Assembly (NCBI GenBank): GCA_947625005.1
Contig: CANQNA010000001.1
Span: 1-64,000 of the forward strand
Direction of reading: 5' to 3'
DNA length: 64,000 nucleotides
Origin: an uncultured Bacilli bacterium
Lineage (GTDB): Bacteria > Bacillota_I > Bacilli_A > RF39 > UBA660
Of the stretch, positions 7,978-60,601 are shown piece by piece (within the stretch, counting starts at the first letter, position 1; the number at the start of each line of letters is the position of its first letter). The position numbers were made by a program, and so were the translations under genes. The notes below the pieces were generated by a model. It saw only the letters and a program-made list of their open reading frames with translations, was not told the DNA's origin and searched no databases.

Positions 7978-8043
7978 AAATATCAATCCACCTTTTATCT
8001 CTTATTGCTATTGCTTTATTATATCAAAAAAATTTAAGAAAGT

Positions 8044-8079: not shown

Positions 8080-11000
8080 TTAAAATTTCTTTCTATTTGC
8101 GGATGGGTTTGCCCCCATTTTACCAACTAATTTATTAGAAAAATCTTTTATTTTGCTATCAATCATTCTCTCCATTTTAATTAAAGTATTATTATCCGCA
8201 TTTCCATCTATTCTAATAGTTGTATCACCTATATTTATATCTACATTATTATTTATATTTATTCCTTTTGAAGCTTCTTTAGCATCTACATCTATAGAAT
8301 CTAACATTCCTTTTGCTATATTAGAAACAACAGTATCATTAGAATCCAATAAAGTTTGAACTAAAGAAGGTAAAGCCTTTATAGTAGCTATTGTGCCACC
8401 AGAAGATGTGGCGGAAGTAGGCGTAGCAGCGGTAGTACCTCCAGTTGTTTTTGCGAGAGTTGAGGTAGTTGTAGCACCAGTCAATGCACTATTCATTTTG
8501 TCAAGAGATTCTGCTGTATTATCCGCACTAACACTTACCTTATCCATAGATTCAGCAGCGGTATCTGCTGGCAATCCAAGGATTTCCTCTAAGCTAGTAT
8601 TAATTCCCGCATTAGCTAATACTTGTTGCATTTGTTCGCCAGTAGCATAATGATAATAGTCAGATTCCATATTACCTAAAACCGCTTCAGGGTCTAAGGT
8701 ATAAGTTTTACCATCTTTACTGATTGTGGTTTTATATGAATCTTTGTCATAACTCTCAACAGTATAACCTAATTGAGTGAGCCAATCCCTCATCTTCTTA
8801 CGTTCATCTTTGAGAGAATCAGCTATAATCATACCATAATCAGTTTGTGTAATCTTTGTATAACCGCCAGTAATAGGATTATAATATTGTAATCCCTGTT
8901 GTAGAGCTTTTTGGGTTATAGTGGGGTCGTAAGTAGCTTTATAATACTCTCCACTAGCTTTATCTGCAAGAGTACCCATATTGCTCATATCAAATGTTTG
9001 ACCTATAGCGGTTCCAGTCCCCTTAGCCAGTATATCCGCCACTAAAGCCGCCATTTGTTCTGGGTCATCTTCAAGTGTTTTTCTTAAATCTTGGAAAGCT
9101 TCTAATTGGTCTCGTAAAACTTCTGTCTGCTTATCTAACTCATCATCTATATTATCAAGTTGGTCTATCTGGTCTTGAATAGCATCTCTTATTGCTTGCC
9201 GCCAAGCTTCTATAGCGTCTTCTTTTAATTCTTCATCTAATTCTTCAAGCTCTTTCTGTTTATCTTGTGCGGATGAGAGTGCCTCCAAATCACCTGTGGC
9301 GCCCGCAGTTAAATATCTATTACGCTCTTGTACTATTTCACTGCGTTGTTGTAATTTCTTTTGTCGCTCATTTTCTTTATCTTCTGCATCCCAGATTTTC
9401 TCAAGCATATCAAGATAAGCCTGTAAAGCATCTCTCTTATCATCATTAGCTTTTTTGATAGCATCCGCATTTTTTTCAGCAGCATCCGCCTCTTTTTGCA
9501 GTCCATCCTCAATTTCATCTAACTGTTCTGTAATACCAGATTTAATCAAGTCTTCCGCATTATCAACTGCTTCTTTTGTTTTGTTGTTTAATTCTTCAAA
9601 ACCATCTTCTATACTTTTCTGGTCTTTCTGATATTGTCTAGCTTCTTTTTGTAAGTCTTTAAGATAATCTAATAAGCCTTGATTAGCGGGGTCTTTCTCT
9701 AATGCTTTTCTTACACGTTCAATTTCTGTTGCATTAGCAGCCATTTCACTACGTAAAACCGCAGCTTGCCTAGAAAGTAAATCTGCTTTATCCGCCAAAT
9801 AAGTAGGTGAATCCTCATCAAGTAAATCTATATAATCTTGAAGCTCATCATTCATATCCTCATATTCTTGAATAATAGCTTGATGATTCTCTTTATAAGC
9901 TTCTGTTATACCCTTTTGGTTTTCTTCTATTTGTTTAGCTATTTTTTTACTTGTCTCACTTTCTTTACCTGCATTAAGATATAAAGCTTTTTCATACTTT
10001 TCTTGCAATTTAGGAATAGCATCTGTATATATATCAACTTTTTCTAATCCAGAAACCGCATTTTCTATTCTATCATTTACTTGTTCATTAAACCAGTCAA
10101 AATCATCATTAAGAGCTGATAATACAGGGTCAAAAGTACTTTTATAGTCCTTGCCATATTCTCCCTCGCCGGGATTAAGTCCAATCTTTTCTAAAAAAGT
10201 ATTAATATATTCTTTAGTTATATCAAAACCTGTTTTTTGAGATTCAAGGTCTTGTTTTCTTTTTTCTAATACTTCTTTTTGTTTCTCATCTGTTGTTTTG
10301 CTAATTTCGTCATCAATTTTATGAATAGCAGCTTCTAAATCATCAGATGCGTGTTGCCACTCTTCATTAGTTATAGATGATAAATCTCTTCCTTGAAATT
10401 GTGGAACATAAGATTTAATTAATTCACTAGCAATTTGTTTGCCATTTTCTCTAAGTTTTGAAGTTTTGCCACTTAATCCTTTTTGGAAATTAATAGCTTC
10501 TTGCTCCATTGTCTTTTGAATATTATTAATAGCTTCTTCATCACCATCAAGAATAGCTTGTTTAAGCTGTTCTTCAAGGTCTTCCATTCTATTATTATAT
10601 TCTTCAACAAAAGCATCAACATCAGCTAATTGTGAGGAAAGATTTTTAGCTAAATCCTTCATATAAGGAGCTACTGATTTTGTGGTAGTTCCTTCTTCAT
10701 CTCCTATTACGAAAGCTTCACCTGAAACGATTGAATTTAATATTCCATCTAAAGTAGACTCTCTTTCGTATAAATCAGCAAGTCTTTTGTCTATCTCATC
10801 AACATCACCAAATGTAGATTTTATAACTTCTTGAACTCCACTAAGGTTATCATCATCTACTGTTGTATCTGTTAATTCTTTGATTTCAGAATCATATGTT
10901 TGAATAGTTTTTATCCAATTTTTAAAAGTTTGTCTATATTTATCTAATTTTGCTATATCGTTTACACTATCTTCATTAAAAGTTGAGATTGTTCCACCAT

Positions 11001-14000
11001 GTACTTTATCTTCTTTGGTAAAAAATTTATCTTTTAAAATTGAATTTATAATATCATCTGTCCAAAATTGAGCTGATTTAAAATTTACACCCTACGCTTG
11101 TTCAAAATTACTTAATTCAAAATCTCTAGTCTTTGTTTTTTCTGTTATTGAATTTTGATTCGCAGACACTTGAGCTTCTTTATTGTTTTGTATTAATTGT
11201 AGAGTATTATCATATAAGGCTTGAGATTGTGCTTCAGTTGCATCTTTAGCTTGTAAAATAGCTTTAGCAGATTCTAATTTCTGCTTTTCATTCTCTATTT
11301 CTAATTTCAAATTATTAATTTTTTCAGCAGTTTCATCTTTTAACGCATTTGTATCTAATTCAATGCCATTTTTAGTAAACTTAAGAGCTGTAGCATAATT
11401 TTCATTAGCTTCTATTAAACTTAATGCAGTTTCAGCAGAAATTTCTCCATTTTCTTCATATTCTTTCATGGCTTCTGCTACTGTTTTTATTTCTTTATCC
11501 ATTCCAGATAAAGCTTCTGTAAATTGTTTTGCAGATAAAGTTAATCCTTTAAACGGGTCAACTTCTTCTAAATCAGAAATATCATAATATTTAGTAAACT
11601 CTTCAATCGATAAACCTGCTTCAGAGGTCCAAGGTTGATTTAACTGTTCTTGTTTTATCTCTTTTATTTTAGTTTTTATTTGTTCAAGAATTTCCGTTTC
11701 AGTTAAACCTTGTTTTTGTAAATCTACAATTAATTCTTCTGAACCTTTAGATTTTCTAATTAAATCATCTAAACTTGTTATTTCTGTTCCTATGTTTGAT
11801 ATTTCTTCTGCAACTTCTTTATATTTTTCATTATCCCAAATTTCATCAAACTGTTCAGTTTTATAACTTGCTGGATCTAATGTTTTAAAAATATTATCCC
11901 GCATTTCTTTAATACTAAGAGCAGAAGCTGAAGAACCTTGCCCACTTTTTACTAAAGCTTCATATTGTTCATCTAAACTTTCAACAATTAAAATTAAATT
12001 GTTTTGATATGTAGATAGATTTCTATTAGTATTATCTAATTCTTGTTGATTAAACTCTTGATTTTTTCCACCTTGCTTAACAGCTTCATTCTATTGTTCT
12101 TGTTGCTCTTTTAATTTATTAAATTGGTCTATTTGTTGCTGTATATCAATCCTTTTGCCAGATTCTATATCTTCTTTAGAAAAAGCTTGCGCTCCAAGTA
12201 CAGGAGAAGCCCAGTTTCTTATCGCTTGACCTGCGTCTTCCCACCAAGCTTGAGTCTATCCAATCGTGCCAACAGTATTTTGACCAAATTGTTTTTGAAC
12301 AGAAAATCCAGCAGAATCTGCATAAGCCTCAGCAGCTGTTTTAGCTAAATCTTCTTGTAATTTTTTTTGACTTTCAAGTAAACTTTGAGTTTCTTTTAAT
12401 TTGTCTAATTCTTGTTGTTCTATAAAAGTTAAGCTATCTTTTTTTTCTAGCTCTTCTATTCTTTCTTTTGTTTGTTCCAAAGAGCTATTTAATTCTTCTA
12501 CTTTGGAAGAAACTTCTTCATAACTATCTTTTAAATTATTAGTTTGCTCAACAGCTTCTTTTGAAGAAATTGTAAGAGCATCATAAACTTTCATGGCTAT
12601 TAGAATTGCGGCTGCTGCTGCAATCCCTGCAATTCCAGCTTTAGCAGTAGTGCCTAAAGCAGCCCAAGATTGTTTTAATTTTGTGATAACTCCGATATTA
12701 GTTGATTGTAAATCACTTAATCGTTGTTGTTGTGATGATAATGTTTCATTTAAAACAATCTCTTGCTCTTTTATATCATTATTAATTTTTTCTTCTTGTG
12801 CTACTATACGAGTTTGGTTTGCATAAGCTCCTTTTGCATTGTTTAATTGATTTTCTGTAACCGATAAGTTTCTTTCAGTAGTATAAACTTCTTTTTGAGT
12901 TTGCTCCAATAATTCTTGAGCAATTTGACTATCTTGTGTTGCTTTATTAAATTTATTTTGTGCTGTAGAAGCTTTTTTGGTAAAATCTTCATAAGAAATC
13001 ATACCTCTATTGAGGTCATCTATAGCAGTTTGATATTCTTGTACTGCCTCTATTTCTGCTTGCTTAGCAATATCTAACTGTTGTTGTGCTTGTTCACGTT
13101 GCTTCTTTTTAAAATTTAAATCATTGACTAAACTTTGTTTTTGTAATTCGAGAGTATCTTTTTGGTCTAATAATACTTGTTGTTTTTTTAATTCTTTTTT
13201 TAATTTTTCTGACTGTAATTCTTTTTCATTAGCTACTTGTTTAAGAGAATCTTGAGTTGTTGATATATCTGTTTGAGTTTTTCTTTCAAAACTTTTAAAA
13301 AATTCTTCTCTAAAAGAAGAAAATTCTTTTAGTCCACTTATAAGACTAGGAATTACAAAACTTAATGAAACAAAAGTTTGAAGTATTTTTTCTCCTGTTG
13401 TAGAATCTTTATCTGACCAAATATCACCTAAATTTGTAATTTGCTCTAATCCAAAAGCAATTTGTCCTAATCCTCCAACAAATTTAACAATTTGAGTAGT
13501 ATCAAAAGCTTGACTTATTCTTGCTTTATTAGCTTCTAACTGTTGAGAATAAGCTTCTGCACCATTTTTTGCTTTATTATATTCTTCAACATTTTTGTCT
13601 ATTGCACTACCAGCAATAGTAGCAGAATCAACCGCTTCTTTTCCATATTGTTTAATTAATAAAATTAAGTCATTAACAATATTGTTAAGTTTTTCTATTT
13701 CTCCGGGGTTTGCAGGTAATTGTCCAGAATTTTCAATTACACCTTTGTTCCCATATGAATTTAACTGTTGTACTAATTCATTTATTCTTCTAAATTGCTC
13801 TTCATTTAAAGCATTTGTATTAAGTAAATCTTCAGCACTTTTTTTAATTCCGTTAAAAATTTCTATTCCATTTTCTGTTTTTTCTATATCATAAGATAAA
13901 GTATTAAAATTTTCACTAACTCTACTAATCCACTTATAAATATTCTCAAGAACAGTTTGAATTTTACCAAATTTATTTAAAACAGATTCATCTACATTAT

Positions 14001-15876
14001 CGCCAAGAATATTTAAATTTGTAGCTCCTGTAACTTTAGAAATAAATTCCTCCGCAGCCTGTGTATTTTGTTCAATAGCTTGCTTTTGTTGTTCATAACT
14101 TGCTATTTTAGCTATCAAATCTTTATTTTCATTTATGTCACCTTCTGACATAACTGAATAATATTGTTGCATAGCGGCAGTGCGATCTACTATACCCTTA
14201 ATTACTGTATCTTCATATCCTTTAGATTGAGCTAAAGATTGAGTTATTTCTAATTCTGCATTTAATTGAGCAACTCTATCTTTACTTGCTTGAAAATTAC
14301 TAACAAAAGTACTAATAGCCGTACCAATCTGTCTACTACCAATTTGTAATAATAAGCTACCTAATAATTGTAAAAGGGGTAAACCGCCCCCAAGACTATC
14401 AAAAAGAGTAGCTGTTACATCTCCAAAAGTAGCAAACCCATCTATAAAATTTTTTAATGTTTCTTGAAAATCCTCATTAAAGAAAGAATCAGCAACTGAT
14501 TCCCAACTAGTCCTCATCTCCTGAATATGTGCGGTGATTCTCTGACTATATATATCTTGTTGTTTAGCTAACTCACCAGTAGCATTTAAAGAAGTATCTA
14601 ATGCTTCTGAATACATACCATTCCAGTTATTAAACAAAGTAACAAGAGAGTTGTACTGATATTTACCTGCTAATAACTGTGCGGCTGATGTCTGTGTCTT
14701 GGTATCCCACTCATTCCAGTGTCCAGCAATATCACCTAAAATATCATCCATGTTTCTCAGTTCACCAGAAGTATCTAATACTTGGATACCTAAATCTGCT
14801 AAACCACCTGATACTTTACCTAATTCGCCATCTATCTTTAAATCAGCAATTCTTGCATATATTGTACGCAGCGCATTACCTACAGTTTCTGGAGCTTGGC
14901 GGGTAACAGAAACAATAGTTGAAATTTGTGCATTTAAGGAATCAAAATCTACTCCAACTTGATTAGCAACAGAAGCAACCTTTGACATACCTGTTGCAAC
15001 TTCTGCTAGGTCTGATGCGGTGGTAGCAGCAACCGCAGCTAATTTATCAACATATTCAGTATAGACTCCCATACCTTCTTTTGCGGCTTGGTTTGCTACT
15101 TGATAACCATTCCATACCGCAGTTAAGTAATCAGACATTTCATCTGGGTCTATGCCAGATACATTTGCGGCGGAAGTAGTTACTTGAGCCTTATACATAG
15201 CTTCGGCGTTTTCATCACCTTGCTGATAGTAAATCAAAGCGGCTTCTGCTATATCTCTAGTACTAGCACTAAGATTTCTAGCTGCCTCGTTCGCCTGAAC
15301 CGCAAATCTACTCATCTCATCTGCAGATTTGCCTGTTACTATTCGTATATCATTTAAAGAAGAATCTAACCCCTGAACATAACTATAAGCTGATTGTATA
15401 CTCATAGTGATAGAGTTGAATACAGAAGATGCAACTCCCCACTTAACAGTATTAATCATTGTGTTAGCAATTTCATCCATCCATTTAACACTTTGTTTTA
15501 ACTGAATATTAGTTGTTAAAACCTCGGATGTTAAATTTTGAAATGCCTGTTGTCCTATAGGTCCAAGAGTTTGAAATCTTGACTATAATTCATTTATATT
15601 TAAATTTTTTAATTCATTATTAAATTTAGATATATTTATTGTACCTAAATCTGTATTAAAGGCTTTATTTAAGGCAGATTGTAATTGTCCTACAGAGCCT
15701 TTTATTTTATCTAACTCATCAACTGCATCTCTAAAAGATAAATTCTTATTCATCTTAGAAAAAGTAGCGGCTGACATATTTTGTATCTTTTCTAAATCTG
15801 ATTGTAATGTTCTTAAACCCTGTTGGTCTACATTAAATCCAATTCCAAATTTTATTTGTCCGCCATTTACAGCCAT
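8080..15876 (-). CDS. Tail tape measure protein (about 2598 aa, four sense TAG)
   Basis: A single frame from ATG 15874-15876 (AGGAGGG upstream) to TAA 8080-8082, with TAG at 15583, 12256, 12091 and 11092. All segments share one reading frame. Residues ~130-330 match the TP901-type tape measure core (VKWGVASSVFN, LNDIRIVTGKSADEM, AEAALIYYQQG). The rest is mostly coiled coil; a hydrophobic segment rich in Ala/Ile lies near residue ~1080 (AKAGIAGIAAAAAILIAMKV). The first TAG precedes SRFQTLGPIGQQAF, where related proteins as I recall them carry Tyr. At about 0.15 nm per residue the length predicts a tail near 390 nm. It also chaperones tube polymerisation and probably enters the cell with DNA. 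Confidence 0.9.
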
Positions 15877-18416: not shown

Positions 18417-20355
18417 CTGGATGTGTACCATTATTTTTAGGGTCTGTCTGATAAGTTGTTGTTTCACCTGTTGCATGGTCCATAACAGACTCAAATTCCT
18501 TAGTAGCTTGGTCGCTCTCTTCTACTACTTGGATTACACAAAGCACTTCCCTAGTCTTATCAAAGTAGGTATATCCGGGGAAGGCGTCCATTGTGAAAGA
18601 GAAGGTGCTTGGATCTCCAGTAGACGCCATTGTGAACGTAAAGTTGGACTGAATCTTAACTTTAGGGAATGTAAATACAGCAGGATAATCCTTACCATCT
18701 TTATCTCTCCAAAGTGTATCTCCCTCAACATAGAAGTATCCACCAAAGTTCTCTGCATCTATCTGTAATTCGGTAACTTTATTACCTTTCTTTAATACAT
18801 AATAATCAACTTGTACAGTTGTTCCAGCCTCACCTGAAATAAGCGTAATAGCTGTCTTAGGCTCTGTTACTGCACCAGTTTCATCTATTGTTTGGCTATT
18901 CTCGCCTTCTGCTAACTCATATAACTCACCTGTTAATGAGCCATCTGTATCTACTCCCATAACAAAAATAGGAGCATCAAAACATAAAATATCATTACCT
19001 AATGCTTCTTTTAACTCTACTTTATGTTCAGCACCAATAGTTGTCTTTGTGGTTGTATGAACATGTACCATAGGAGTTGCATTATTCTGCTTAATTACGC
19101 CTGCACCTGATAAAGCGGCGAAACTAACTGGAGAGATGAGGGCATCTTCCACAGTCAGTGTTAATGTTTTTTCACCTCAATAATCTTCCACCTAGGTCGT
19201 TACACCTAGATGCGTTCTCTTATGAACTGCTATACTTTTATGTATATGTATAGATGAGACTATATCTTCATCCTATTTAAATAGGAGCTCCGCACTTCGA
19301 GCTACTTAGCTCTACATCCTAAGAGGATTAGTCGTTGAACCTTCCTTGTTTTAAACAATTTTCTTGTTGAGTAATTTTTTGTAAATTATCTAAATTATTA
19401 TTTTTTGGATTAGCATCAATATGGTCTATTACATACCCTTCTAAATCATAGTCATTATTAAAAACACAATATACCAACCTATGTAAATAATATTTCTTTT
19501 TTCCTAATTGTATTCTACAATATTTTTGATTTTCATCTATATATAATAAACGATTAGTATTATTATTTTTTACTCTTCCACAAGAAGAAACAGAATAATT
19601 CTCATTTTCTGGAAATATTAACCACTCTTCGTTAGGAAGATTATTTACATGATATTTAGGTTCTCTTCTTTGTGATTGTTTTATTTTATTGTGTTCTTGC
19701 ATATTCTCTTTAGGCGTAACCCAAGCTAAATTATCAACATTATTATTTAATTTGTTTTCATCTTTATGATGGACATAAGGTAAATTATTTGGATTATCTA
19801 AAAAATATTCAGCTACTAATCTATGAGCATAGACCATTTTATTTAACTTATGCCCTGATACAGACAATTTATCTTCAATAGCTAAAGCATAGACTCGATA
19901 ACCAACATTGTCTATTTTTCCTTTTAAAAATCTATTAGTTTTTTTACTAAATAATCTTCCATCATTCTATATTAAATAATCTGAATCTTCTTTTAATTCT
20001 TTAAAACAAAGGCTTGGCTGCTGATTGTCTTTTGTTTTCATAAAAAATCTCCTTTTTCTTTTAAAATAGCATAATTTTTATAAAAAGTCAAAGAGTTCCC
20101 AGCAATTCACGGAGTTTTTCTTTATACTGTTACCAGTATTCTTGAGCCGGTTTAAATACTATCCCAAGCAATAAGTTGCGCATTTCCTCTTCCTCCAGTT
20201 GCATAAACTGTAGTAGCAGCTCCTTCAATAGTAGAGGTCTTAGCAGAATCTATAACAAAAACTGGTTGGTTTGGCTTATATGTTACATTGCCTATCTTTT
20301 GTTCACTTATGGCTCTAAATGTAACATCAAGTGTTTCTCTAATACCAAAACGCAT
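18400..20355 (-). CDS. Major tail (tube) protein, interrupted by a group I intron (about 325 aa)
   Basis: Exon 1 is 20154-20355 and exon 2 is 18400-19175; joined they give an open frame of 326 codons ending in TGA. Exon 1 encodes MRFGIRETLDVTFRAISEQK... and a segment (DSAKTSTIEGAATTVYATGG, GNAQLIAWD) typical of clostridial phage tail tube proteins; exon 2 continues KTLTLTVEDALISP. The protein polymerises into the tail tube through which DNA passes. The 5' splice site is set by a 7-bp helix between AGTATTT and GAATACT ending in a U-G pair. Exact splice position is inferred. Near the 3' end a run of nine A precedes the TGA (see the separate frameshift entry). Confidence 0.75.
19176..20153 (-). 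mobile_element. Group I intron in the tail tube gene, carrying an HNH endonuclease
   Basis: A 978-nt insertion splits the tail tube frame. P1 pairs exon AGTATTT with GAATACT and ends in the expected U-G wobble; the last intron base is G. The core words AATTGCTGGGAACTC, AATCAGCAGCC and, near the 3' end, GAAGATATAGTC are typical of phage group I introns and are shared with the terminase intron in this window. Splicing restores an open frame (202 + 776 nt). The endonuclease frame starts inside the core (the AATCAGCAGCC word is coding). Confidence 0.8.
19328..20041 (-). CDS. Intron-encoded HNH homing endonuclease (237 aa, one sense TAG)
   Basis: The frame from ATG 20039-20041 (AAGGAGATTTTTT upstream) holds an N-terminal NUMOD4-like part (YLI-TAG-NDGRLFSKKTNRF), an HNH motif (YVHHKDENKLNNNVDNLAWV), a second NUMOD4-like part (FPENENYSVSSCGRV) and a second HNH copy (VIDHIDANPKNNNLDNLQKI). 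Such enzymes cut intronless alleles and spread the intron. The TAG at 19967-19969 lies before the first HNH motif, so full-length enzyme depends on amber suppression. An internal start could still give an HNH fragment. Confidence 0.85.
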
Positions 20356-20376: not shown

Positions 20377-21168
20377 TTAAAAACCGAATTGAATATCTTT
20401 CATCCAATTTTCAATTTCTTTTTCATTTTCCATTTTTCCGCCAGCAAGTTTTACTCTTAAATAAGTATCATATTCTTCTTTTAAGATAAACCGCTGAAAC
20501 TCATCAAATAATTGATAAATAGTGTAATTAGCTAAATCATTCTTATCTTTTTTTAATCCAACAGAAAGAATAGAAATATATTTATTAAAAACCCCAATAT
20601 CTTGATTAGGAGATTGAGCTCTTTTTATTCTTTCAAGTTCAGCATGGCGTTTTTTCAATCTTTCTACCATTTTTCTTGAAGTTTCTCCTGCGGGATTATA
20701 CTCATCTTCTTTATTTGCTCTTTTAGTTAAACAAAAAATTTCAATAAGTATAGAACGTAGCTCATCAAAATTATCTCTATCTATAGAGTATATTTTTTCT
20801 TTATCTTGTTTATCAATTAATATTATACTATCATTTTGTACATATATCTCCTATTGCGGAAAAATTAATACAAAAATAGTCATCATACTTAACACCTTAG
20901 ATTGTTTTAAAGCATCTTTTTGTTTTAGTATTGTCATTATTATATCAAAATCATTTAATAGGCTTAAATCTAATTCGCCCATACTATTATTACTTAAAGA
21001 TTGTAATGTATCTTTTGCAAACAAAAGTATAGAACATCCTAAGAAAAAATTATTCTCTCCACCTAACTCCGCAATCTCCTTTATGCTAGGTTGATGTAAC
21101 ATTACACCAATTCCCGCACAATTCACATTAGAACCAGTATTTAATATTGAAGTATCTATTTTCTTCAT
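20377..21168 (-). CDS. Tail/neck-region structural protein (263 aa, one sense TAG)
   Basis: The frame runs from ATG 21166-21168 to TAA, with TAG at 20851-20853 in IFPQ-TAG-EIYVQNDSIIL. The start lies a few bases after the stop of the preceding gene. The N-terminal half is an alpha/beta domain (MKKIDTSILNTGSNVNCAGI), the C-terminal half is helical and charged (LKKRHAELERIKRAQS, EKEIENWMKDIQFGF). Position between neck genes and tail tube fits a tail completion or tube-capping protein. From memory the family reads FPDYEI near the amber codon. Function is inferred from position only. Confidence 0.65.
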
Positions 21169-21172
21169 ATTT

Positions 21173-21757
21173 TTACTGTAAAGGTGCAGGTGGAATAAGG
21201 TCGTCTGAACCATGAATAGCTGAAAAGAATATGCTATACCCAGCCCAATCTTCATTCAAAACTAATTCATTACAGCCTAAAAATTGAAACAATCCAATTC
21301 CAGATAATCTAGTTTTATTTAATATACCATCTATATAACCACATATCATAATAGGTCTAAGACGATAATCACCTAAATCCCAATAATCTGTATGACATAT
21401 AACATCAAAATTAACTATACAATCTCTAAATTCTGGATTAGTCGCATTAGCAGTATAGCTATCAGAAGAAATCATAATACAAGATTTTATTTCTTCATGC
21501 TCAAAAAAATCTAATTTTGGTTCAAGTTTTATATAGCCATCTTTTTTTAATCGAGAAAGATTCATATCTTTTAATTTATTATTATAAACCTGACTGGTTT
21601 TATTATCTAAACAATCTTTTGTATTTATAACAAGCAAGCGTTTTAATTCTTCGCTTAAATTTCCACTTTCTATAAATAACTTACGAATTATTGTTCCATA
21701 GTCTTTACCACAAGAGAGGAATGAAGAATGTAATTCCTTAACTAAATCTCTTTTCAT
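21173..21757 (-). CDS. Putative tail terminator/neck protein (194 aa)
   Basis: A 194-residue soluble protein (starts MKRDLVKELHSSFLSCGKD) with a strand-rich C-terminal half (VNFDVICHTDYWDLGDYRLRP, GIGLFQFLGCNEL). It sits between the connector genes and the tail tube, where tail terminator proteins that cap the tube are encoded. No in-frame TAG. The call rests on gene order; no diagnostic motif. Confidence 0.55.
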   Translation of the reverse strand: MKRDLVKELHSSFLSCGKDYGTIIRKLFIESGNLSEELKRLLVINTKDCLDNKTSQVYNNKLKDMNLSRLKKDGYIKLEPKLDFFEHEEIKSCIMISSDSYTANATNPEFRDCIVNFDVICHTDYWDLGDYRLRPIMICGYIDGILNKTRLSGIGLFQFLGCNELVLNEDWAGYSIFFSAIHGSDDLIPPAPLQ

Positions 21758-21775: not shown

Positions 21776-22747
21776 TTAAAACGGTTGTATTGCAATTTCC
21801 CTAGTTACAAGTATTTTATCATCTTTTTTATAGCTTAAAGTAAAAATATTCTGTCTACTTGTTAAAATTTGAATAGTAATAGTTTTGTCATTTTGTTCAA
21901 GAGGTTTAACAATCTTAGTTTTTTGGAGTTCCCAAGTACCACCTTCCGCATTAACAATATTACATTCTATTGTTTCAAGCGGTTTGATGGATGCTGGAAC
22001 ATCTATCCAGACTTCACCTTCCGCAGGCACTTCTGGCGCAATTTGTTTTTGCATTTCATTTTCCATTTCCTCTATACTATTGTTATATTCCTCTTTTAGA
22101 CAAACCTCAATTATTCCCTCTGAAAAGTAAGGATCAACTACCTGTACTTCCCACATATTATTATCAATCTTTACTTTTGTAAATCTATGAAAATAATCTA
22201 AAGTGTTCTCATCTTTTGTTATATACATAACCTCTGAATAATTGATACTATTCCATAAAATACCTAATTTTTGATTCCAAGGTATTTTAGTTTCTACTGG
22301 ACCTCTTAAATAAACCCAATATTTTTTACCATTTATCTCCAATTCTGCTTTACATTTTCTAATCTCCGCTCTGAAATAGGCTTTTTCTTCTAGCTTTTGT
22401 AAATAAACTATCCAGTGAGTATTAGTACTATTCCAGAAGAAAGTATCACCAGATTTAAGCCCAATCTCTTGTAATCCTTCACTTTTTTTATCTTGCGGAT
22501 TTGGCACTTCATTTAAACAAATATCTTTCTATGGAATAGATAAGATTTTGTCATCATAATCTGGTTTATTTTTATCTGGATTTATCAAACATCTAAATTG
22601 TCTACCATCATTTAATTCAATAGTTTGAGATTGATAGGAATATAATAGAGCTTTCTTTAGACTGCGTAATTTATCTTCTGTCATTCTTTTCTCTTGGTTA
22701 CCGCCATAATAATTAAGGCGGGTATTTAAATGATTTAAGGCGTCCAT
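21776..22747 (-). CDS. Head-tail connector/neck protein (323 aa, one sense TAG)
   Basis: The frame 21776-22747 has TAG at 22529-22531 between ILSIP and KDICLNEVPN. The N-terminal ~70 residues (MDALNHLNTRLNYYGGNQ, SLKKALLYSYQSQTIELND) form one helical domain and the region after TAG a strand-rich domain (SGDTFFWNSTNTHWIVYLQK). The chosen ATG 22745-22747 overlaps the end of the preceding gene; an upstream TTG at 22778 is possible. The gene lies between capsid and tail tube genes, so a connector role is likely. The last ~100 residues are Ig-like in composition. Confidence 0.65.
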
Positions 22748-23058
22748 AATTGAATTAGAGTATTTATTATCCCAATGCAATCAAAGATTGTTCTTCTATA
22801 TAAGAAAAAATCTTCTTTATGGTCTAATGAATACAATCCTTCCAATTTACAAATTAATGAAAAGATAATTACCTCATGCTCCAGACTTAATCTATTCATT
22901 CCTACAAACTCTTCAATAATAGTTTCAAGCGGTTTTTTCCAATCGTTACCTTCTTCTCTGCTTGGTAAAAGTTTATATGTTTGATTTAATAATCTTTTTA
23001 AGTTTATAACAACTACTTCATTGTCTATTTCTTCTCTTGATTTATATTTAATAAGCAT
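22735..23058 (-). CDS. Small neck-region protein (107 aa)
   Basis: A 107-residue mostly helical protein (starts MLIKYKSREEIDNEVVVINL). Its start overlaps the end of the upstream gene by 11 bp (ATGCTTATTAA) and its stop overlaps the start of the next gene, the tight packing of translationally coupled connector genes. No TAG, no recognised domain. Confidence 0.65.
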   Translation of the reverse strand: MLIKYKSREEIDNEVVVINLKRLLNQTYKLLPSREEGNDWKKPLETIIEEFVGMNRLSLEHEVIIFSLICKLEGLYSLDHKEDFFLYRRTIFDCIGIINTLIQLWTP

Positions 23059-23533
23059 TGTTTTTCTTCCAATTAGGCAGTGTTTCCATTATTGTATCAA
23101 ATGTTGAGCGCATAATGCCTTTGTCATCTTGCGCTCTGCGCTTGTACAATCTTTGTAAATGGAAACCCGTCCTTTCCTAGTCTTTCTTGAGTTGAAGCAC
23201 CTTGGAGAGATGATTAGCTTGGCTGGTGAATTTCTAGTCAGCACCTGAATACTTCATCCGCACATTTTCTATGCTTGCTAACTGTTGGTCTAGCCAAGTA
23301 ACTATCATATAAGTAGCTAAAATATTTTTTTCTTCTGTTGTTAAATCTATATTAAACTGATTTAAAGCTAAATCATAATTATAAATATCTTGTCTAGGAA
23401 ATTCAAAAAAGTGCATTGAACTCATCAATAATTCAGTAAGCATAGCTTCTGTATCACTTTTAGTAAGTTCCATATACATATCATCCGTTATTTTTGATAA
23501 AAATAAATTATATATATCTGTAAAAGGTGTCAT
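23048..23533 (-). CDS. Connector-region protein (161 aa, two sense TAG)
   Basis: In a standard code this gene would end after 99 residues; reading through TAG at 23234 and 23177 gives 161 residues ending in TAA. The C-terminal part reads FTSQANHLSKVLQLKKD-TAG-ERTGFHLQRLYKRR. From memory, homologs in clostridial phages carry DYxRT...LQRLYSRR here, so tyrosine fits the second amber codon. The basic, arginine-rich C-terminus suggests nucleic-acid or neck interface contact. Position right after the 192-aa gene suggests a head completion protein. Confidence 0.75.
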
Positions 23534-25799: not shown

Positions 25800-27080
25800 T
25801 TAATCTTCCTCCATTCTATTCTTCATTACTGCAGCGACCCAAGCTGGAACTTCCTCAGTAACCGTGTCATTTAAAGAAAACGTTGTGATTGAATCCTCTG
25901 TATCTTCAGTAGCTGTAGTATCTTCATTATCTAAATTAAAATTAATCTTTTTTCTAAAACAAATAACAGAAAGTTTAGCTTCAATATCTTCAAGAGAATA
26001 ATTAGCTTTGTTTTCTATCACTTCTTTTTTATCCTCATCAGAAAGCATATAAAATCTAGAAATCATTTCATCTTTCTGCTTGTCCTCAATATTTGCTTTA
26101 AAAGCTAATAATTCATTATATTTTGTTTCAAGCTCTGCATACTGAACCTTTATATCATTTAATTCTTGTTCCATAAGAGTGTATTTTTCTTTATCTTTAT
26201 CTTCTTTTTCAGTGCTTTCAGTAGCAGTTTCCTCTGCCTCTTCTTTTTCTTCCTTCTTCTCAAAAGAGGAAGTAGTTTCCTCTATTGATGCTTGTTCATC
26301 TTTTATTATATTTTCTGTACTACTTGTACTCTCTTCCGCTATAAAAGAAGTTTCTACAATTTCATTATCCATTGTATTGTCTGGCATTTCTGTCTGTCCT
26401 CCTTCTTTTAATACAAATTTTAAATCTTGTATCATACTATATAAAGTTTTATTAAAATCTTCTAAACTATAATTTGAAGTATTAGTTATATTACTACCCT
26501 CAAAACAAGGCTCTATATCTTCACCAAGTATACATAGTTTAGAAAAAATTGCGTCATTGATAATAAAAAAGCTCATTTGTTTTTTACTATCATAACCAGA
26601 TTCACCTTGTAAAGTTTTTTCATCTAATTCCATAGATTGGGGTCTACCCTCATCTATTACTATCTGAGCTTCTGGATATTGACCAGTCCATAAAAATCCA
26701 GTAGTCATTAAATATTCTCTTTCAATAACATTTCCAAAATCATCTGTATCTTCAAATTTTTGAAACCATACTTTTGCGTCTGGTGATACAAAACCATAAG
26801 GCTTTGTTAAAGATGAAAAATGAACTCCATCCCCATCTATAGTAATTTTTTCACCGTGGTCTCTAAAATCCTCATTATCTTCTTTATACTAACCTACAAT
26901 AGGAGCTCCTCGTAACGTTTTAGACATTTCTATAGCTACTTCTTTTGTTATATAGCTACCATTGCGGTTTTGCCCTGTATAAAGAACTTTTATCTGGCAA
27001 CTTGACATTAAAGGATTAATATCAAGAGGTTGAAGATTAATAAATTCTGGAGAATCAATTGTTGCAACAGATTGGTGCAT
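25800..27080 (-). CDS. Prohead protease-scaffold fusion (426 aa, one sense TAG)
   Basis: The frame from ATG 27078-27080 to TAA has one TAG at 26889-26891 (residue 64). Residues 1-190 resemble prohead maturation proteases: RGAPIVG-TAG-YKEDNEDFRDHG, with the conserved DHG histidine, then TTGFLWTGQ and GRPQSMELDEKTL. From memory the family reads PIVGYYKE here. Residues ~190-330 are a very acidic Glu/Thr/Ser-rich coiled coil, as expected for an internal scaffold that is degraded during maturation. It lies between portal and decoration protein, the usual place. Without suppression the protease would stop at 63 aa. Confidence 0.8.
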
Positions 27081-27151: not shown

Positions 27152-28717
27152 TTAAGATAAACTTTCTTCATTTTTAATAGTTTTTTCTGTTTTTTTGTCA
27201 TCATCTAATTTTGGGCGTCCTGCCCCCTCGTTACCTGTTATTTGCTGTAATGATTCAGCGTTCATTGTGTTAGAGGTAAGAGGTGGTATAAATACATTAA
27301 CTAAATCAAGCACATCATTCTCAAAATAAGCGGTTGCTAATATAGAACTTTGAGAATGTCCAAGAGCTATCTGTGGTAATAATTTAGAATAACCTAATTG
27401 AGTTTGCTCTTTATACAACTTAGATAATTCTTTATAATTATAAATTGTTGTAGTTAATAATTGTGCTTTATAAAGTATTTTCTTAGGTGATTTATTAAAA
27501 GGTTTTAATAAACGATTTAAAAATACCTCAAACTGCGTTAAAAGATTATACATTGAAGCTTCATCATTTAATATAGATTTTTCAAGAGCTATATTACCAT
27601 CCGTGTTGAATTGCATTTGAGATACGCCCGCAGCATTATAAACCGCACGCTCTACCTTTTCAAGCTCATCTTTGGAGGTTGTGGTGTTATTATCCGCCAT
27701 ATCCGCAACATCAACATCCGCAAATGTAGTTAAAACATCAATACCTATTGCTTTTCCTAACATTCTAACCGCATTATTATGTAACTGCTGAGCCTCATCT
27801 ACATCAAATACCAAATCACCATTTTTGTCTATTGGCATTTTCTGAATTATTATCTTTAACAACTGTTGTTGCATTTTTTTTCTATCCAGTCCTTGAGCTT
27901 CATCTAAGTCAATAATAGCTGGAATAACAGATATAAAAGGTGGATATTCATCCCCATTTAAATCAAATTTTATTGCACTATTAATATCCAATAGATACCA
28001 ACCATTTGAATCTCCATTAAAATCTGGTTTTAACTTACCTTCTTTAAATAACAAATATGCTTTTCTAAACTCTTTTGGGAATAAATTTAATACTCTAATT
28101 CTTTGATTAGCATCTGAATAATAATCATCAAAAAATTTTAAATTAAACTCTATAGCGGGTTGCCCATTTACCTCAAACCTAGACCTACAATAAGCTACAG
28201 GTAGCTCTTGTACTATCATTCTATCGGCTTGAGGGATACAATAGCCATAATAACAGCCATATTTAACAACTTTAAGTGCAACATCACCAAAAAATTGCTT
28301 AACTTGAAAATTATCTAAATACATTAAAGCTTTATTAAAACCTTCAACAATTTTCTCATCACTTATAGTTTTAGAATTTACATAAGGTGTAATCATCCAA
28401 TCGTATCTATATAAATAAGCCATATACTTACACAATCTAGCATATATACCACTTGTCTTATAAAAAAAATCTGAAATTTTCCTTAATGTTGCTATATCAC
28501 CTTTGTTTATAGCTCTAAGGACATTTTCTTTATCTCCTAATTGGGGGGCTATTTTTTTATAAGAATTAACAGATATAGTTGCATCTTCAAGAGTTTTTAA
28601 TCCAACTCTTATTTTTGAGAAATCTAAAGAGGCAGGTCTATATTCTTCATTATATTTTTCATTATCGTTCTATATAGATAAATCTGTTGTTCTTTTCTTT
28701 TTAATCAGATTAGACAC
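27152..28717 (-). CDS. Portal protein (521 aa, one sense TAG)
   Basis: The frame starts at GTG 28715-28717 (AGAAAGGTG upstream) and has TAG at 28670-28672 (residue 16). The position between terminase and prohead protease and segments such as SGIYARLCKYMAYLYRYDWM, YCIPQADRMIVQELPVAYCR and TDGNIALEKSILNDEAS fit siphophage portals, which form the 12-mer DNA channel at the head vertex. C-terminal tail is charged and flexible. If TAG were a stop only an internal start at 28435 would remain, dropping the first ~95 residues. Confidence 0.8.
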
Positions 28718-28728
28718 CACCTTTCTTT

Positions 28729-29092
28729 TTAATATCCTGCTGCTTTCATTATATAATCATAAGTTATTCTTGCTTCATCCCAATAGGGAATAATAACAAG
28801 AGTGATGTTATGTTTCATACACTATTCTCTTTTTAATAAATCATAAAACTGCTGCTTGCGGAGACCAGAAAGTCCGCCAAATTTATCTTTAGCTATCTAA
28901 TGTTGACATCCTTGATATTCAATTAAAAAATCTAAGTTATCCTCATCATCAAAAACCGCAAAATCAAAACAGTTATCGAAGAGGGCGCCCATTTGCACTT
29001 AATAAATCTGGAAAGCTATACTCTTCTTTAAAATTTAAATCAGCCATATTTAAAATATCTTCTATTTTTATTTCTCCTCTTGATGCCCTCAT
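28729..29092 (-). pseudogene. Free-standing endonuclease-like gene with two sense TAG and a +1 frameshift
   Basis: ATG 29090-29092 opens a frame (RGEIKIEDILNMADL, FPDLLSANGRPLR) that meets TAA at 28973-28975; the +1 frame continues to TAA 28729-28731 with FDFAVFDDEDNLDFLIEYQG, CQH-TAG-IAKDKFGG and LLKRE-TAG-CMKHNITLV. This is the same domain as the C-terminus of the terminase-intron endonuclease (IEYNGKQHY, NRKRQYCKDNNIDLLEIPYY). The two TAGs align with TAT tyrosines there. The gene sits between terminase and portal, a common site for free-standing homing endonucleases. The frameshift may be real decay, programmed (CGA TAA), or a sequence error. Confidence 0.7.
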
Positions 29093-29178
29093 TCTATTAC
29101 TCACCTTCTCTTATAAAATTTCCTATTTTATGTTCTCTCATAATATATTAAAAAATTTTAAATTTTCCTTTAACTATT

Positions 29179-32176
29179 TTAACCAAAAAATAACATTTTT
29201 GATAAATCTCTACTACTTTTCTTTTTTCTTTTATCTTCTATTTGTTTTATATAATATAAACCATAAGTAAAAGCACTAAATTTATCTTTTTTAATTGACC
29301 TTGTTACTTGTTTAAGAACAATATTTGCTCCCTCATTTTCTTCTACTAAATTAAGTAGTTCTTCTCTTAAAATAGTTGTTAAAGTAAATGGTTTAAGATA
29401 TTCTGCCCTTTTATCAGGGGTCATTTCTTGTCCTAATTTTTTAGACATAAGTTTTAATTTTGCAGTACGTTCATCTATTAAAAATTTAATTTTTCCACTT
29501 AACATTTGAGTTTGTACATAGGAATAAGCTTCTGTATTTATTCCGGGGTTAGCTTTTATGATATATATAGCATCATTTTCTACCTCTGGACCTTTTATTT
29601 TTTTATATAAAGTTAAAGATTCCTCATTGGTACCTCCATTTACGCCAAAAGCAGGCAGAGTTTCACCTGTTTCAGGGTCGATTTGAGGGCGTGTAAGGAA
29701 GTCTATGAGACCAATACCCAGCCCATTACCATCTACAGCCAGCGTTCTCGCCTTCTATTTATAATATAACTTCTTTAAATTAATAGCTTGTTCTTCAAAA
29801 TGCTCAGCTTCATAACTATATATATTAACAATAGTCTTTAATGCTGAACCTTGAACTTGAGGAGTTACCTTTATCACAACTGCTTCTGTTGTACATTTTA
29901 CTCTACCAACATCCACGCCTATTACATAATAGGCTGATTTATTACTCCTACCGCTCTACTCATACTCTGGCTGTTGAAGCACTCTATGTTTATCAAACTG
30001 GTCTGAGGAGAAAAAGGCGTTTTCCGCATCTCCGCTCCACTTTGATTTATATTCTCTATCAAAAGCATTTTCATTATATGTTCCATCCATCTTTAAATCT
30101 CGAATAAAGTTTTTGCTTAATAACTCCTCCATAACAGGAATTTTATATGTTCCGCCTAATACTATTGCCTTCTCTGGTTCAATAATTTGTTGCATTAAAA
30201 GAGTCATCAGTTTATCCTAGGCAAAGGAGTTTTTCCACCCAGCTGTTGTAACGTATATCTGGCTTTTGTTTGTAACTTCATTCTCATCATAAGAACCATC
30301 TGGTAAACGCCTATTAATATTCATTAAAGGTAATATAACTTCATTTAATGCAGCTTCATCAATAAGAATAACCTCTTCCATCAAACCGCCTGTTCTTCTT
30401 TGTCCTCTGGCACTTTGTCTTGCTGCAACTATATCAAGAGTACTACCATTTTTAAATTCCTAAGTTACCATATCTTTTGCGGAGCGGGTATGTCCCGGTC
30501 TCCAATCTATTTCCCTAGTAAGTCCGGGTATTAATTTACATAATTCTTCTACTTTAGACTTTGTTATACTAGATGCTTGTTCTTTACCTCCAGTAGTAAC
30601 AAATAGCTTTGAGTTAGGAAATAAAATAGCTCTTAACATAAGTATTAAAACCGCTAAAAAAGATTTAGAATAACCTCTAGGAAATGTGTTCTAAGAATAT
30701 TTATGTCGCATTGCTGCTCTTAAAAAACCTTGTATTTATATAACTACGCTACTAGTTATACCAACTATAATAGTTGCTCATACTTTCGTATGAGAGTAGA
30801 CTATATCTTCTTCTCTTTTTAAAAGAAGGGTACCATTTCCACTACCAATTACTTGTAGTGTACTCCCTTATGGGATAGTCGTTGAACTTAGAAAATTTAA
30901 AACCTGTATTTCTATTTCTTCTTTAGATAAATAATATGGAATTTCTAATAAATCTATATTATTATCTTTACAATATTGTCTTTTTCGATTATCTCTTTCT
31001 TTCTAAATTACAAGAGAACCGCTAAAATGAGGAACTTCTTCATAATGCTGTTTACCATTATATTCAATAGCTTTAGGGTAGTCACCATTACTAAAATAAA
31101 AATCAAATCGCTGTAAAGAATTATTTAATCTAACTTCTCTTTCATAAGGAATATTATTATCTTCTAATATTTTACAAATCTATTTTACTCCTTTACTTTC
31201 ATAAGAGCCACATCTTGGACAAAAACTTTTTCCCTTTATAACATCAGCAGGTCGTGCATTCCAAATAAAACCACAAGAGTGTTTTAAAAGAACTTTTGTA
31301 GTTTGATTAATATACTCTCCAATGAGTTCATAAGAGCCTTCTATACAATTTTTATTTACTTCATTTAAAAATTCTTCTTTTGTACGATTCCTTATTGTGT
31401 TGGTCTCACATCCACATTTCAAATGATTATAAATATTAGTTAAAGTAGATTTTCTAACATGACCACATTTTTTACATTCTATTATATAGTATGTGTGAGT
31501 TCCTATTAATTCTGTTGATACTATATTATAAAGTGCCTTTATTTCATTTAATTTTCTTTCTCTTTCTCTCCATAAGCCATAACAATTTTTACAACCATAA
31601 ACTTTACTTTTTGCAAAAAAATTAGAAGCTTTAGATATATCTATTATTTCTTTACATTGACAACATTGAATTTTACAAGGCTTACCTAAAGTTGTATATT
31701 CTATAATGTTAAATTTTTCTTCTGGAAACCTTTGCTTGATTCTTTCTTTAAAATCTGTTAATGTTACAGGTTTACTCATATTATTTTTCTCCTTTTCTAA
31801 GCTGCTGATTATCCATTAGTAAAACTTAGGATTACTCCATATTTCATTCAAATTCTTGTTTCTGCTTTCGCACCTTCATATTTATTGAGAAATAAATAAA
31901 TATTGTGGCAATTTGACTTTAGGATTTCCCAGCAATTAAGTACCTTTTCTATACTATTTACATAATATAGGGACCTTCTTTGATCCTTTGCTAGAACTAC
32001 AAATGGAAATTTTCTGGGTTACTGCCTACTAAAAAATCAACAAATATATCTGGGTATTCCCGCCAAAAAGAAACATATTGTCTTAAAGCAGGTAAAATTT
32101 TCTTTAATCTTTCTTCTGATATACCTATTTTTTTGTTTTTAGACAAAGATAATTGAATTAAATCTTTTAATGCCAT
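29179..32176 (-). CDS. terL: Terminase large subunit, interrupted by a group I intron (580 aa, seven sense TAG)
   Basis: Exon 1 is 31983-32176 and exon 2 is 29179-30727; together they give 581 codons ending in TAA. The protein packages DNA: an ATPase domain with Walker A-like PRGYSKSF (residues ~81-88), Walker B VILIDEA (~180), and an RNase H-fold nuclease starting GVDVGR (~336) with VDGNGLGIGL (~397). TAG occurs at residues 60, 62, 77, 154, 235, 322 and 389. Residues 60-65 read TAG-F-TAG-QRI and 75-80 read YS-TAG-NTF; the family motif as I know it is YFYQR...YxYxTFPR. The splice junction is set by that motif and by a short P1 (GGAT with GTCC). Confidence 0.9.
30728..31982 (-). mobile_element. 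Group I intron in the terminase gene, carrying an endonuclease gene
   Basis: A 1255-nt insertion lies within the most conserved part of terL, just before the Walker A motif. Removing it joins ...CAAAGGAT to TTTTTTAAGAGC in frame. P1 pairs exon GGAT with intron GTCC ending in U-G; the last intron base is G. Core words AATTGCTGGGAAATC, AATCAGCAGC and GAAGATATAGTC match the tail tube intron, so the two are related group IA-like introns. It contains the 303-aa endonuclease frame at 30868-31779. Confidence 0.85.
30868..31779 (-). CDS. Intron-encoded homing endonuclease with zinc ribbons (303 aa, two sense TAG)
   Basis: The N-terminal ~200 residues hold repeated CxxC pairs (CQCKEII, CKNC, CKKCGHV, CPRCGS), zinc-ribbon DNA-binding modules. 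After TAG 31180-31182 the C-terminal ~100 residues form a nuclease-like domain: FDFYFSNGDYPKAIEYNGKQ with HY, a second TAG at 31003-31005, then RKRQYCKDNNIDLLEIPYY, the pattern of phage-associated VSR/PD-(D/E)XK-like homing enzymes. Without suppression only the zinc-ribbon part would be made. The gene lies inside the terminase intron and presumably spreads it. Confidence 0.85.
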
Positions 32177-32179
32177 AAA

Positions 32180-33361
32180 TCATTCCTCCTCATAGATAAG
32201 ATTGTCTTGCTCTATCTGAGATTCTATATCATTATAATATTCTTCAAAATCTTCATCTTTTAAAGGAACAGCATCTTCTTGTTTCTCTATTTCATTCTGA
32301 ATTTGTATTTTCTTTAACGCATTCTCTATTTGTTGTCCAAAACCTAAATCTTCAGTAACAAGAGTATAAAGATATTGATTCATATCTTTTAATGTAGCAT
32401 CTACTTTATCCTGCGGAATATCTGTACAATAGCGAGGAATGAACCCCTCTCTTTCACAAATTGCAACTATTTCACCTACAGAATCTATTGCATTGCCGTC
32501 TTTATCCTTATTCTGGGCAGCGGTGAACTTACACGACTTGCGCAAGGATTCATATATCTTTGCTAATTTTTGGAATCCATCTATATCTCCCATATTTAAT
32601 GCTTGATTCATTTTTAAATAAGCTTTATTTATTAAAATAAGAGATTGTTGAGTATCCGCATCTTGTATATCAAAAGAATTAATCATTTCATTATATAATC
32701 TTTCTAACTCTATCCATTCATTAGGTCTAAATTCTCTTCCCCACTTCATAAATAAATATTTTTTATCTTCCTCAGTAAGCTCATTAGACAAATCAAATTG
32801 TTCTGCATCCATAAAAGCATTATCTGTATAAGGATTATCTCCGCCGCCTGTAACAAGTAAAGCTGGGTCAGACTATACAGGTTGTTGGGGCTGTTGTAAA
32901 TTAGTTTGAACTAGAGTCATATATTGAGCTTCACTAATTTCACCTTTATTTAATTGTTCTTTTAAATATTGCTCTTTTTCTTTTGCGGATTCTTCATCTT
33001 CTATTAATAAATTATTTCTAGCAAGAAAATCTTTTTGTAATTTTTCAGAATCTTCAAAACTATACTTATTCTATTGTTGAAGTTTCATTTTTGCAAGGTA
33101 TTTACCAAAAACCGTTCCTCCTGTCATTTTAAGAGGGTTTTTGGCATAATCTTTATCTCTAGTGATATTCCATTCACCTTCTATATAAGGAATATCCATA
33201 TCTTTTAATATCCAAACGAAAGTTTTTGGCTCAAAAGGATTAACATGCATCGTTAAACATTTCTTACAAAGCTTTGTTCTAGTACCATCTCTACATTTAT
33301 AGTAATGTTTGTCTGCAAGCTCTCTATGACATTTTTCACAGAGATAGAGTTCTTCTTTCAT
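32180..33361 (-). CDS. Zinc-ribbon packaging-associated protein, possible small terminase (393 aa, two sense TAG)
   Basis: One frame from ATG 33359-33361 to TAA 32180-32182 with TAG at 33071 and 32873. The N-terminus has a four-cysteine ribbon (LCEKCHREL...CKKCLTMH), the middle is a charged linker with Gln/Pro-rich stretch, and the C-terminal half is helical with LTEEDKKYLFMKWGREFRPN. It lies directly upstream of terL (3-bp gap). Such long zinc-ribbon proteins precede terL in clostridial phages and may act as the small terminase or a recruitment factor; this is inferred from position. Confidence 0.65.
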
Positions 33362-33425: not shown

Positions 33426-34478
33426 TTATTTTTTCTTTTTATTTCTACATTTTTTACATATACTATAAAATCCATCTTTACTTCCACTATTCTTAGAAAA
33501 GAAAAAAGAATGAGCTAATTTGATTTCACCGCAGCAAGAGCATCTTTTCCATTTGCCCTTTTCTTTATTAGTATAATACCATATTAAATATTCTTCTTGT
33601 GCTTTTTCCGCAATTAATTTAGGTATCTTATTTCGCCATAAACAAGAGAGCCATTCAATAGTATAAGATATATTATATTTATCTTTTAATATTTGTTGTA
33701 TTTCTAAATTTTGTCTACCTGATATTTTTAATTGTATTAAATCCTAATAAATAGGATAATCCACCAAGGCGGTTTTTATTAAATTATCTAATTCATCTAT
33801 TATACAAAATAAATCATTAATTATTTTATCTTCACTATTCTCTTTTAATAAAGAATAGTTTTGTAATAATATAGAAATATGTTTAGGATTAAAAAAAGAA
33901 GGCATACCATCACTAGAAACCGCCCCATTTTCATCAATAGTAATATGTTCATTAAAATCAGTCTTTAAATTAGATTTTATGGTTGTTGTGCTATATATTG
34001 GTTTTTTATAGGCGGTTTTTATTGTATATTGGTCTCTCCGCATTTGTATTAATTGTTTTTTTAATAAATATTTATTTTTCCCTGTTGCTTTTTTTTCCAT
34101 TTCTTCAACTGATTTAATTGCATCTATTAATGTTTTAAGAGGAGGAATATCTTTAATATCTTTTTCAGTAATTGAAATTTTAGGTGTAAATAAAATAGAT
34201 TTATCGTCCGCCGCCATCATATTATAAACACCATCTTCGCCATTCTCAAGCTTGCTAGACAAACCTTCATAAGAAATTTCTCTTTTATTAATAGTTACTA
34301 ATCTATTATTAGTTAAGATTCTTTTTTCCTTTTTTTCTTCTTTTGTCATAGCTTGAATAATATAATCACTTAAAATATTTAACTATTTTTGAGTTAATTT
34401 TTCTGGCGGAGTCTGGCTTATAATTTTTTCTACTAGTTTAGAACGCTCTTCCGCACTTTTTATAGAATAATCAAGCAT
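33426..34478 (-). CDS. First late gene: conserved protein with C-terminal zinc finger (350 aa, two sense TAG)
   Basis: The frame from ATG 34476-34478 (AAAGGAGGG upstream) to TAA has TAG at 34383 and 33744. The start reads MLDYSIKSAEERSKLVEKII; after the first TAG comes LNILSDYIIQAMTKEEKKEK then RLVTINKREISYEGLSSKLE, a conserved phage family found upstream of terminase. The C-terminus has a zinc finger (CSCCGEIK...CKKC). From memory homologs read LTxxYLExLADYI at the first amber codon. A consensus promoter lies about 50 bp upstream, so this gene begins the late operon. Molecular role unknown. Confidence 0.7.
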
Positions 34479-57260: not shown

Positions 57261-57276
57261 GGAGGTATGCAAAACT

Positions 57277-60517: not shown

Positions 60518-60601
60518 CCGTGAGAGGCAGATATTGGCTAGCTGCACGTAGCTCTAAACTACGCACCTCTGGTTTAGTGGGTTCGATTCCCACCTCACGG
60601 A
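60518..60601 (+). tRNA. Amber suppressor tRNA (anticodon CUA), tyrosine-like
   Basis: A full cloverleaf: acceptor CCGTGAG/CTCACGG, D stem GCAG/CTGC with TTGG in the loop, anticodon stem CGTAG/CTACG with loop CTCTAAA (anticodon CTA at 60554-60556), a 13-base variable arm with ACC/GGT pairing, and T stem GTGGG/CCCAC with loop TTCGATT. Discriminator A, CCA not encoded. The long variable arm excludes glutamine; a 13-base arm, A73, a TGGCTA D loop and a loop that differs from tRNA-Tyr CTGTAAA only at base 34 fit tyrosine (as in E. coli supF). The C1-G72 pair is unusual for bacterial tRNA-Tyr. Confidence 0.9.

Follow-up and report, generated by a model that had tools for sequence, protein, structure and literature searches.

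Probable tyrosine reading of in-frame TAG codons in the structural genes of a tailed phage, with probable glutamate and glutamine readings among its relatives

The window analysed here, 64,000 nucleotides of contig CANQNA010000001.1 (assembly GCA_947625005.1, from an uncultured Bacilli bacterium), contains in its left 34 kb, on the minus strand, a tailed-phage structural arm, in which PHROGs names a holin, a minor tail protein, the distal tail protein Dit, a tape measure protein, a portal protein and TerL. Its right part carries, on the plus strand, a tRNA gene with the anticodon CUA (60518–60602; ARAGORN), which is putatively a tRNA-Tyr(CUA) reading TAG. The question addressed is which amino acid TAG specifies in the structural arm. 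About 36 in-frame TAG sites had been claimed in the original prediction, and 36 were counted, all on the minus strand between positions 809 and 34385. The left-arm genes are long single frames when TAG is held open, and many of them are broken when TAG is taken as a stop. Thirty-two of the TAGs are located within 25 gene models (10,545 codons), as compared with 461 TAT and 34 TAC codons, while two of the other four are in exon 1 of TerL and two in a nuclease fragment. As these models were drawn with TAG open, their TAA or TGA ends are built in and were dropped as evidence.

The right arm contains 44 standard-code open reading frames (ORFs) of at least 80 amino acids, ending in TAA (37), TGA (4) or TAG (3). 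Its read-through ORFs (33 ORFs, 5274 codons) include 12 TAGs, five of which are near the ORF start and one near the end, while the remaining six sit in two minus-strand ORFs; none of the 12 is clearly gene-internal.

For the residue test, in-frame TAG was masked as X, so that no residue was favoured in the alignments, and the window genes were aligned against 146 loci (denoted L), comprising relatives from TerL and portal scans, the phage phAss-1 and one human-faecal record, the portal scan contributing the best 80 of its 185 relatives. The loci outnumber the phages, as some of them are nearly identical to each other or occupy overlapping parts of a single contig; five overlapping loci were excluded from the log-unit scoring of the window columns and kept in the Glu scoring and the majority-column counts. 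Alignment positions three residues or fewer from an alignment end or gap were excluded. Scoring of a TAG column required at least five relatives without in-frame TAG, a property judged only over the aligned part of each locus, and 22 of 40 sites were scored; 14 of the 18 sites below this threshold are in the left arm. The scan with Dit gave one match and that with the minor tail protein none, whereas 10 loci from a scan with the sigma-factor-like protein were left out of the counts. A Leu signal in fragment-against-fragment alignments was false, as it came from wrong reading frames, and alignments anchored on the window genes were used instead.

Sixteen of the 22 scored TAG columns have Tyr as the majority residue, while Phe, Ala, Lys, Arg, Trp and Met each lead one and Gln and Glu lead none. 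Conservation reaches 80% or more in 14 of these columns, of which 11 are Tyr and one each is Phe, Lys or Trp, while Tyr accounts for 120 of 2029 conserved non-TAG columns (5.9%). The mean profile of the TAG columns (Y 0.64, F 0.11) matches that of 217 columns at the phage's own Tyr codons, TAT or TAC (Y 0.68, F 0.10), and is unlike that of its 189 own Gln columns (Q 0.46, E 0.11). When every column is given a single vote, Tyr is ahead of Phe by 23.3, of Glu by 62.4 and of Gln by 66.0 log units, and it is still first without TerL (15 columns, Phe 13.0 behind) and without TerL and the nucleases (10 columns, Phe 7.1 behind). Tyr is first in 1000 of 1000 column bootstraps, while random column sets favour it in 7 of 1000.

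These columns support the claim of tyrosine rather than glutamine. TAG is read as Gln in the amber-recoded phages of NCBI code 15, as published in the available parts of PMC7886860, PMC10607447, PMC13037316 and PMC9610469, and this assignment, with Tyr columns met by chance, would also fit the distant relative phAss-1, for which the same column method returns Gln in agreement with its authors (PMC10607447, as far as available), a positive control for the method. Gln-dominated columns were searched for in the window as a refutation of tyrosine, and Gln has the majority in 0 of 22; with its 66.0 log-unit deficit and the tRNA features described below, glutamine deserves practically no credence here. 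Phe is the second-best residue, and a residue used much as Tyr is, such as Phe, Trp or Leu, or an ambiguous reading might be proposed instead, but nine scored columns are at least 90% Tyr in relatives without in-frame TAG, which argues against each of these, and Leu is outside the four best residues.

TerL is divided into two exons by an intron of roughly 30727–31981, the ends of which are inferred, while both exons are continuous in one frame in 105 relatives' loci. Exon 1 (31982–32176, minus strand, to QRI) contains TAGs at 31997–31999 and 31991–31993; in relatives without in-frame TAG, the first column has 43 Tyr, 15 Phe and 1 Arg, and the second 58 Tyr and 1 Thr. Exon 2, taken from its first ATG (29179–30711, minus strand; PHROGs), has TAGs with first bases at 30691, 30460, 30217, 29956 and 29755, the columns being, in that order, Tyr in 59/59, 67/67, 61/62, 43/70 and 66/74. 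The end of exon 1 reads NFHL-TAG-F-TAG-QRI, and exon 2 contains MRHKYS-TAG-NTFPR, where 12 of these relatives' loci read NF(H/Q)L-(Y/F)-F-Y-QR(I/L/V/M)-FLRAV-(M/I)RH(R/K)YAYATFPR; the family motif given in the original prediction is YFYQR...YxYxTFPR. A group I intron family match lies inside the intron (30777–30959, minus strand; RF00028, 35.5 bits against a gathering threshold of 50, E 5.3e-7).

As a correction to the original prediction, the nuclease at 28729–29092 does not form a single open frame but shifts frame near 28998, and its 3' piece alone (28729–28998, minus strand) was aligned. The tyrosines proposed for its QGCQH-TAG and LLKRE-TAG-C motifs hold, as the TAGs at 28897–28899 and 28822–28824 face Tyr in 75/75 and 71/75 relatives without in-frame TAG. 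This frame change would suit decayed or misassembled genes with TAG as a genuine stop, but the 36 TAGs are within long frames that contain neither TAA nor TGA, and decay or error is unlikely because the TAGs concentrate on Tyr columns; such an explanation is scarcely believable.

Further TAG sites, all in minus-strand genes, are distributed along the arm. The sigma-factor-like protein (33426–34478; phrog_5767) has TAGs at 34383–34385 (Y 48/51) and 33744–33746 (Y 51/54), an unknown protein (20377–21255; phrog_4051) at 20851–20853 (Y 25/27), and a head-tail region protein (23048–23533; phrog_3853) at 23234–23236 (F 34/35) and 23177–23179 (Y 32/38). The protein earlier termed a protease (25800–27080), which belongs to phrog_3313 of unknown function, contains a TAG at 26889–26891, where Tyr in 47/62 relatives without in-frame TAG agrees with the motif PIVGYYKE of the original prediction. 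An HNH endonuclease (19328–20041; PHROGs) has its TAG at 19967–19969 (Y 7/11), and an unknown protein (21776–22780) at 22529–22531 (Y 16, F 11). Another unknown protein (32180–33361; phrog_3314) contains TAGs in a Trp column (33071–33073) and a variable one (32873–32875). The single TAG of the portal protein (27152–28720; phrog_2739), at 28670–28672, is likewise in a variable column. No relative was aligned with the unknown protein at 440–934 (TAG 887–889 and 809–811). In the protein at 1547–2470, with TAGs at 1655–1657 and 1577–1579, the three C-terminal repeats place TAG, TAT and TAG at one position, as had been noted before.

The tRNA at 60518–60602, labelled Pyl by ARAGORN owing to its anticodon alone, has a perfect acceptor stem, C1-G72, A73, a 13-nt variable arm (type II) and an A at position 8. 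In a comparison set for acceptor ends, consisting of those tRNAs that could be parsed in the phage loci and in four metagenome-assembled genomes (MAGs), C1-G72 is found in Tyr 4/10, Leu 0/24, Ser 0/20, Gln 0/10, Glu 3/12, Pro 10/13 and Arg 1/23, and G73 in all 20 tRNA-Ser. Variable arms in the phage set are 13–16 nt in 6/7 tRNA-Tyr, 16–22 in 13/13 tRNA-Ser, 4–5 in 9/9 tRNA-Glu and 5–10 in 6/6 tRNA-Gln, while those of tRNA-Leu are 12–15 nt in 13/21, the rest (3–5) being probably misparsed. In combination, the long arm, C1-G72 and A73 point to Tyr, and the 13-nt arm and C1-G72 speak against glutamine. Overall the phage tRNA is as near Leu as Tyr, which would suit a leucine reading, but C1-G72 is absent from the 24 tRNA-Leu, and TAG as Phe, Trp, Leu or a mixture is very unlikely. 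In an acceptor-stem pattern scan, ARAGORN saw no CUA tRNA among the matches listed, which included a single tRNA-Leu sharing this acceptor start.

Based on the homology columns and the tRNA type, the structural arm very probably reads TAG as Tyr through the phage's own tRNA(CUA), which is predicted to be charged by the host tyrosyl-tRNA synthetase (TyrRS). Several observations weigh against this. In six of the 22 scored columns the majority lies with a residue other than Tyr (Phe, Trp, Lys, Arg, Ala, Met), and these include both TAGs of the intron endonuclease (30868–31779, minus strand; PHROGs), at 31180–31182 (Lys) and 31003–31005 (Arg). The ten sites of tail, tape-measure, holin and neighbouring genes that align to a single relative, contig 3300035522_000076, are mixed (Tyr 4, Ile 2, Phe 1, Lys 1, Met 1, TAG 1). 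That one relative has Tyr at both the holin (1133–1522; phrog_13712; TAG 1322–1324) and Dit (7084–7986; phrog_202; TAG 7669–7671) sites, while the minor tail protein (3467–7066; phrog_6211; TAG first bases 6416, 6116, 3797 and 3713) shows Tyr, Phe, Lys and Tyr, the first site of the 1547–2470 protein shows Ile, and the tape measure protein (8080–15876; PHROGs; TAG first bases 15583, 12256, 12091 and 11092) shows TAG, Ile, no residue and Met; all are on the minus strand. Of the seven TerL columns, five are mainly aromatic in six isolate phages and the remaining two are not; in these phages the protease column is Tyr in 3/5, while other non-TerL columns are mixed, several not being Tyr. As for the tRNA, Rfam RF00005 at gathering does not report it and two permissive scans missed it likewise, its whole-sequence similarity is a little higher to Leu (62.8) than to Tyr (61.4), its folding is modestly better than that of shuffles (z −1.82), and three MAG tRNA-Tyr have G1-C72, so charging of a C1-G72 tRNA by the host stays putative. 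Phage tRNA-Tyr(GUA) genes with C1-G72, as compared with G1-C72 in those three MAG tRNA-Tyr, are present in L099, L100, L206 and L208.

UAG is read in a near-cognate manner by tRNA-Tyr in other systems, and TAG might be decoded here by an ordinary tRNA-Tyr of host or phage, with the CUA tRNA not the decoder. The second contig fitting Tyr, 3300035522_000076, on which no tRNA was detected, weighs against decoding by the phage tRNA and would suit this proposal, but that contig is a 67-kb linear fragment, and the window itself encodes a tRNA whose anticodon is exactly CUA and whose features are of Tyr type, so near-cognate decoding seems unlikely. In the preferred reading, Tyr through tRNA(CUA), the system would most likely have originated from a tRNA-Tyr gene by one base change of the anticodon from GUA to CUA, and TAT or TAC codons of the structural genes would have turned into TAG. 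Host TyrRS would charge the tRNA with Tyr, and the tRNA, once expressed, would outcompete release factor 1, TAG decoding possibly serving late infection. Pfam found no synthetase in 30 right-arm ORFs, and the phage genome may extend beyond the window; in 17 relatives' records TyrRS (PF00579) has one match, below the cut-off, and the release factor (PF00472) none.

TAG has other readings among the relatives. Over their aligned parts, 79 of the 146 loci are without in-frame TAG, 61 fit Glu best (including L036, L038, L162, L164 and L195), three fit Tyr (one contig) and one, phAss-1, fits Gln, while two with seven TAGs each are weak, L035 being best with Ser and L165 with Asp. Some of the 61 Glu loci, such as L146, L147 and L153, have few TAGs and small margins. 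In L035 (contig 3300032038_000010), Glu is 2.4 log units behind Ser. The 1083 TAG positions of 27 strongly recoded loci face window residues Glu 0.52, Asp 0.10, Lys 0.08 and Gln 0.06, and in the same loci GAA faces Glu at 0.51 and CAA faces Gln at 0.54, so that TAG resembles GAA and not CAA. In TAG-free relatives, the majority at 479 distinct TAG columns of the Glu-type loci is Glu in 261 and Gln in 28, and among the conserved ones (n = 126) it is Glu in 96 and Gln in 2.

CUA tRNAs are found in the stretches of 5 of 14 Glu-type records (L099, L100 and L206–L208), and a further one on the contig of an Erysipelotrichaceae MAG (L371), while none was found in the nearly complete record G005. Those measured have variable arms of 4–5 nt, and four of five (L206 being the same as L208) are nearest to tRNA-Glu by the mean of the best three matches; L100 is the exception, with Gln and Lys closest, and the single best match of L207 is a tRNA-Cys. 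The tRNAs of L100 and L206–L208 have C1-G72 and G2-U71 in common. A tRNA-Gln origin was considered for the tRNAs of the Glu phages and rejected; the body of L100 is nearest to a tRNA-Gln, but it has C1-G72 and G2-U71.

In a portal tree of 97 rows made by a quick method, the Glu rows form two starred groups of 26 (including L165) and 24 rows, the second adjoined by 22 rows lacking TAG, and the two Tyr rows are in a separate, weakly supported group. Two groups of close relatives likely use Glu-like tRNAs to translate TAG as glutamate, as judged from sequence. It is also highly probable that TAG has three meanings in this one tailed-phage lineage, namely Tyr (this phage and one contig), Glu (61 loci, two separated groups) and Gln (phAss-1). 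The relatives would have made the same move with another tRNA, the amino acid being set by whichever tRNA became the CUA reader. The portal proteins of L133 and L134 are identical; L134 fits Tyr and L133 is TAG-free in its short aligned part. On L134, the aligned stretch of the 28729–29092 nuclease stays in one frame.

As described in the available text of PMC7886860 and PMC13037316, the crAss-like and jumbo phages of code 15 have TAG mostly in late or structural genes and often a phage tRNA with the anticodon CTA, as here, whereas TAG of this phage fits Tyr rather than Gln and its tRNA is of type II with C1-G72. phAss-1 (OQ749652) has a TerL of the same family (44.7% identity), amber recoding and suppressor tRNAs, but differs in that TAG is Gln according to both its authors and the column method (PMC10607447, available part). 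The accessible part of PMC10879173 predicts a Tyr isotype for 1.1% of 180 phage suppressor tRNAs and says that validation is needed; these tRNAs(CUA) resemble the present one, but are isotype predictions, while column evidence is given here. Ciliate codes with UAR as Tyr (Mesodinium) and UAG as Glu (Oligohymenophorea sp. PL0344) give UAG the same meanings as this phage and its Glu-type relatives (PMC10553269, consulted in part), but ciliates are cellular eukaryotes, and Mesodinium changes UAA too, which ends 37 of 44 right-arm ORFs here. No report of phage TAG as Tyr or Glu was found among the literature matches listed (titles and abstract starts; bioRxiv and most subscription journals were outside the scope).

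Gln annotation of recoded phages is commonly chosen by coding density (PMC13037316 and PMC9610469, in the parts available). As coding density cannot distinguish amino acids, this choice is uninformative on the residue, and the assumption of Gln for recoded phages likely fails for this one. Should TAG stand for Tyr in this phage and for Glu in many of its relatives, the proteins deposited for such phages have wrong residues at conserved sites, the amino acid of amber recoding is not fixed, and 'code 15' is one label over several codes. With non-recoded phages and three recodings in one lineage, both the code change and the choice of amino acid would become directly testable.

The TerL relatives L121–L129 are binned in Erysipelotrichaceae, Bacilli and Clostridia MAGs and one Prevotella MAG, a hint that the hosts are mostly Bacillota. 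Rfam found no ribozyme beside the tRNA at 60518–60602, although no search was made for the published theta-ribozyme motif. A pyrimidine dimer DNA glycosylase (PF03013; 60823–61242) adjoins this tRNA, and 57217–58131 and 59115–59978 encode a pair of similar proteins, both with DUF7666 and pentapeptide repeats.

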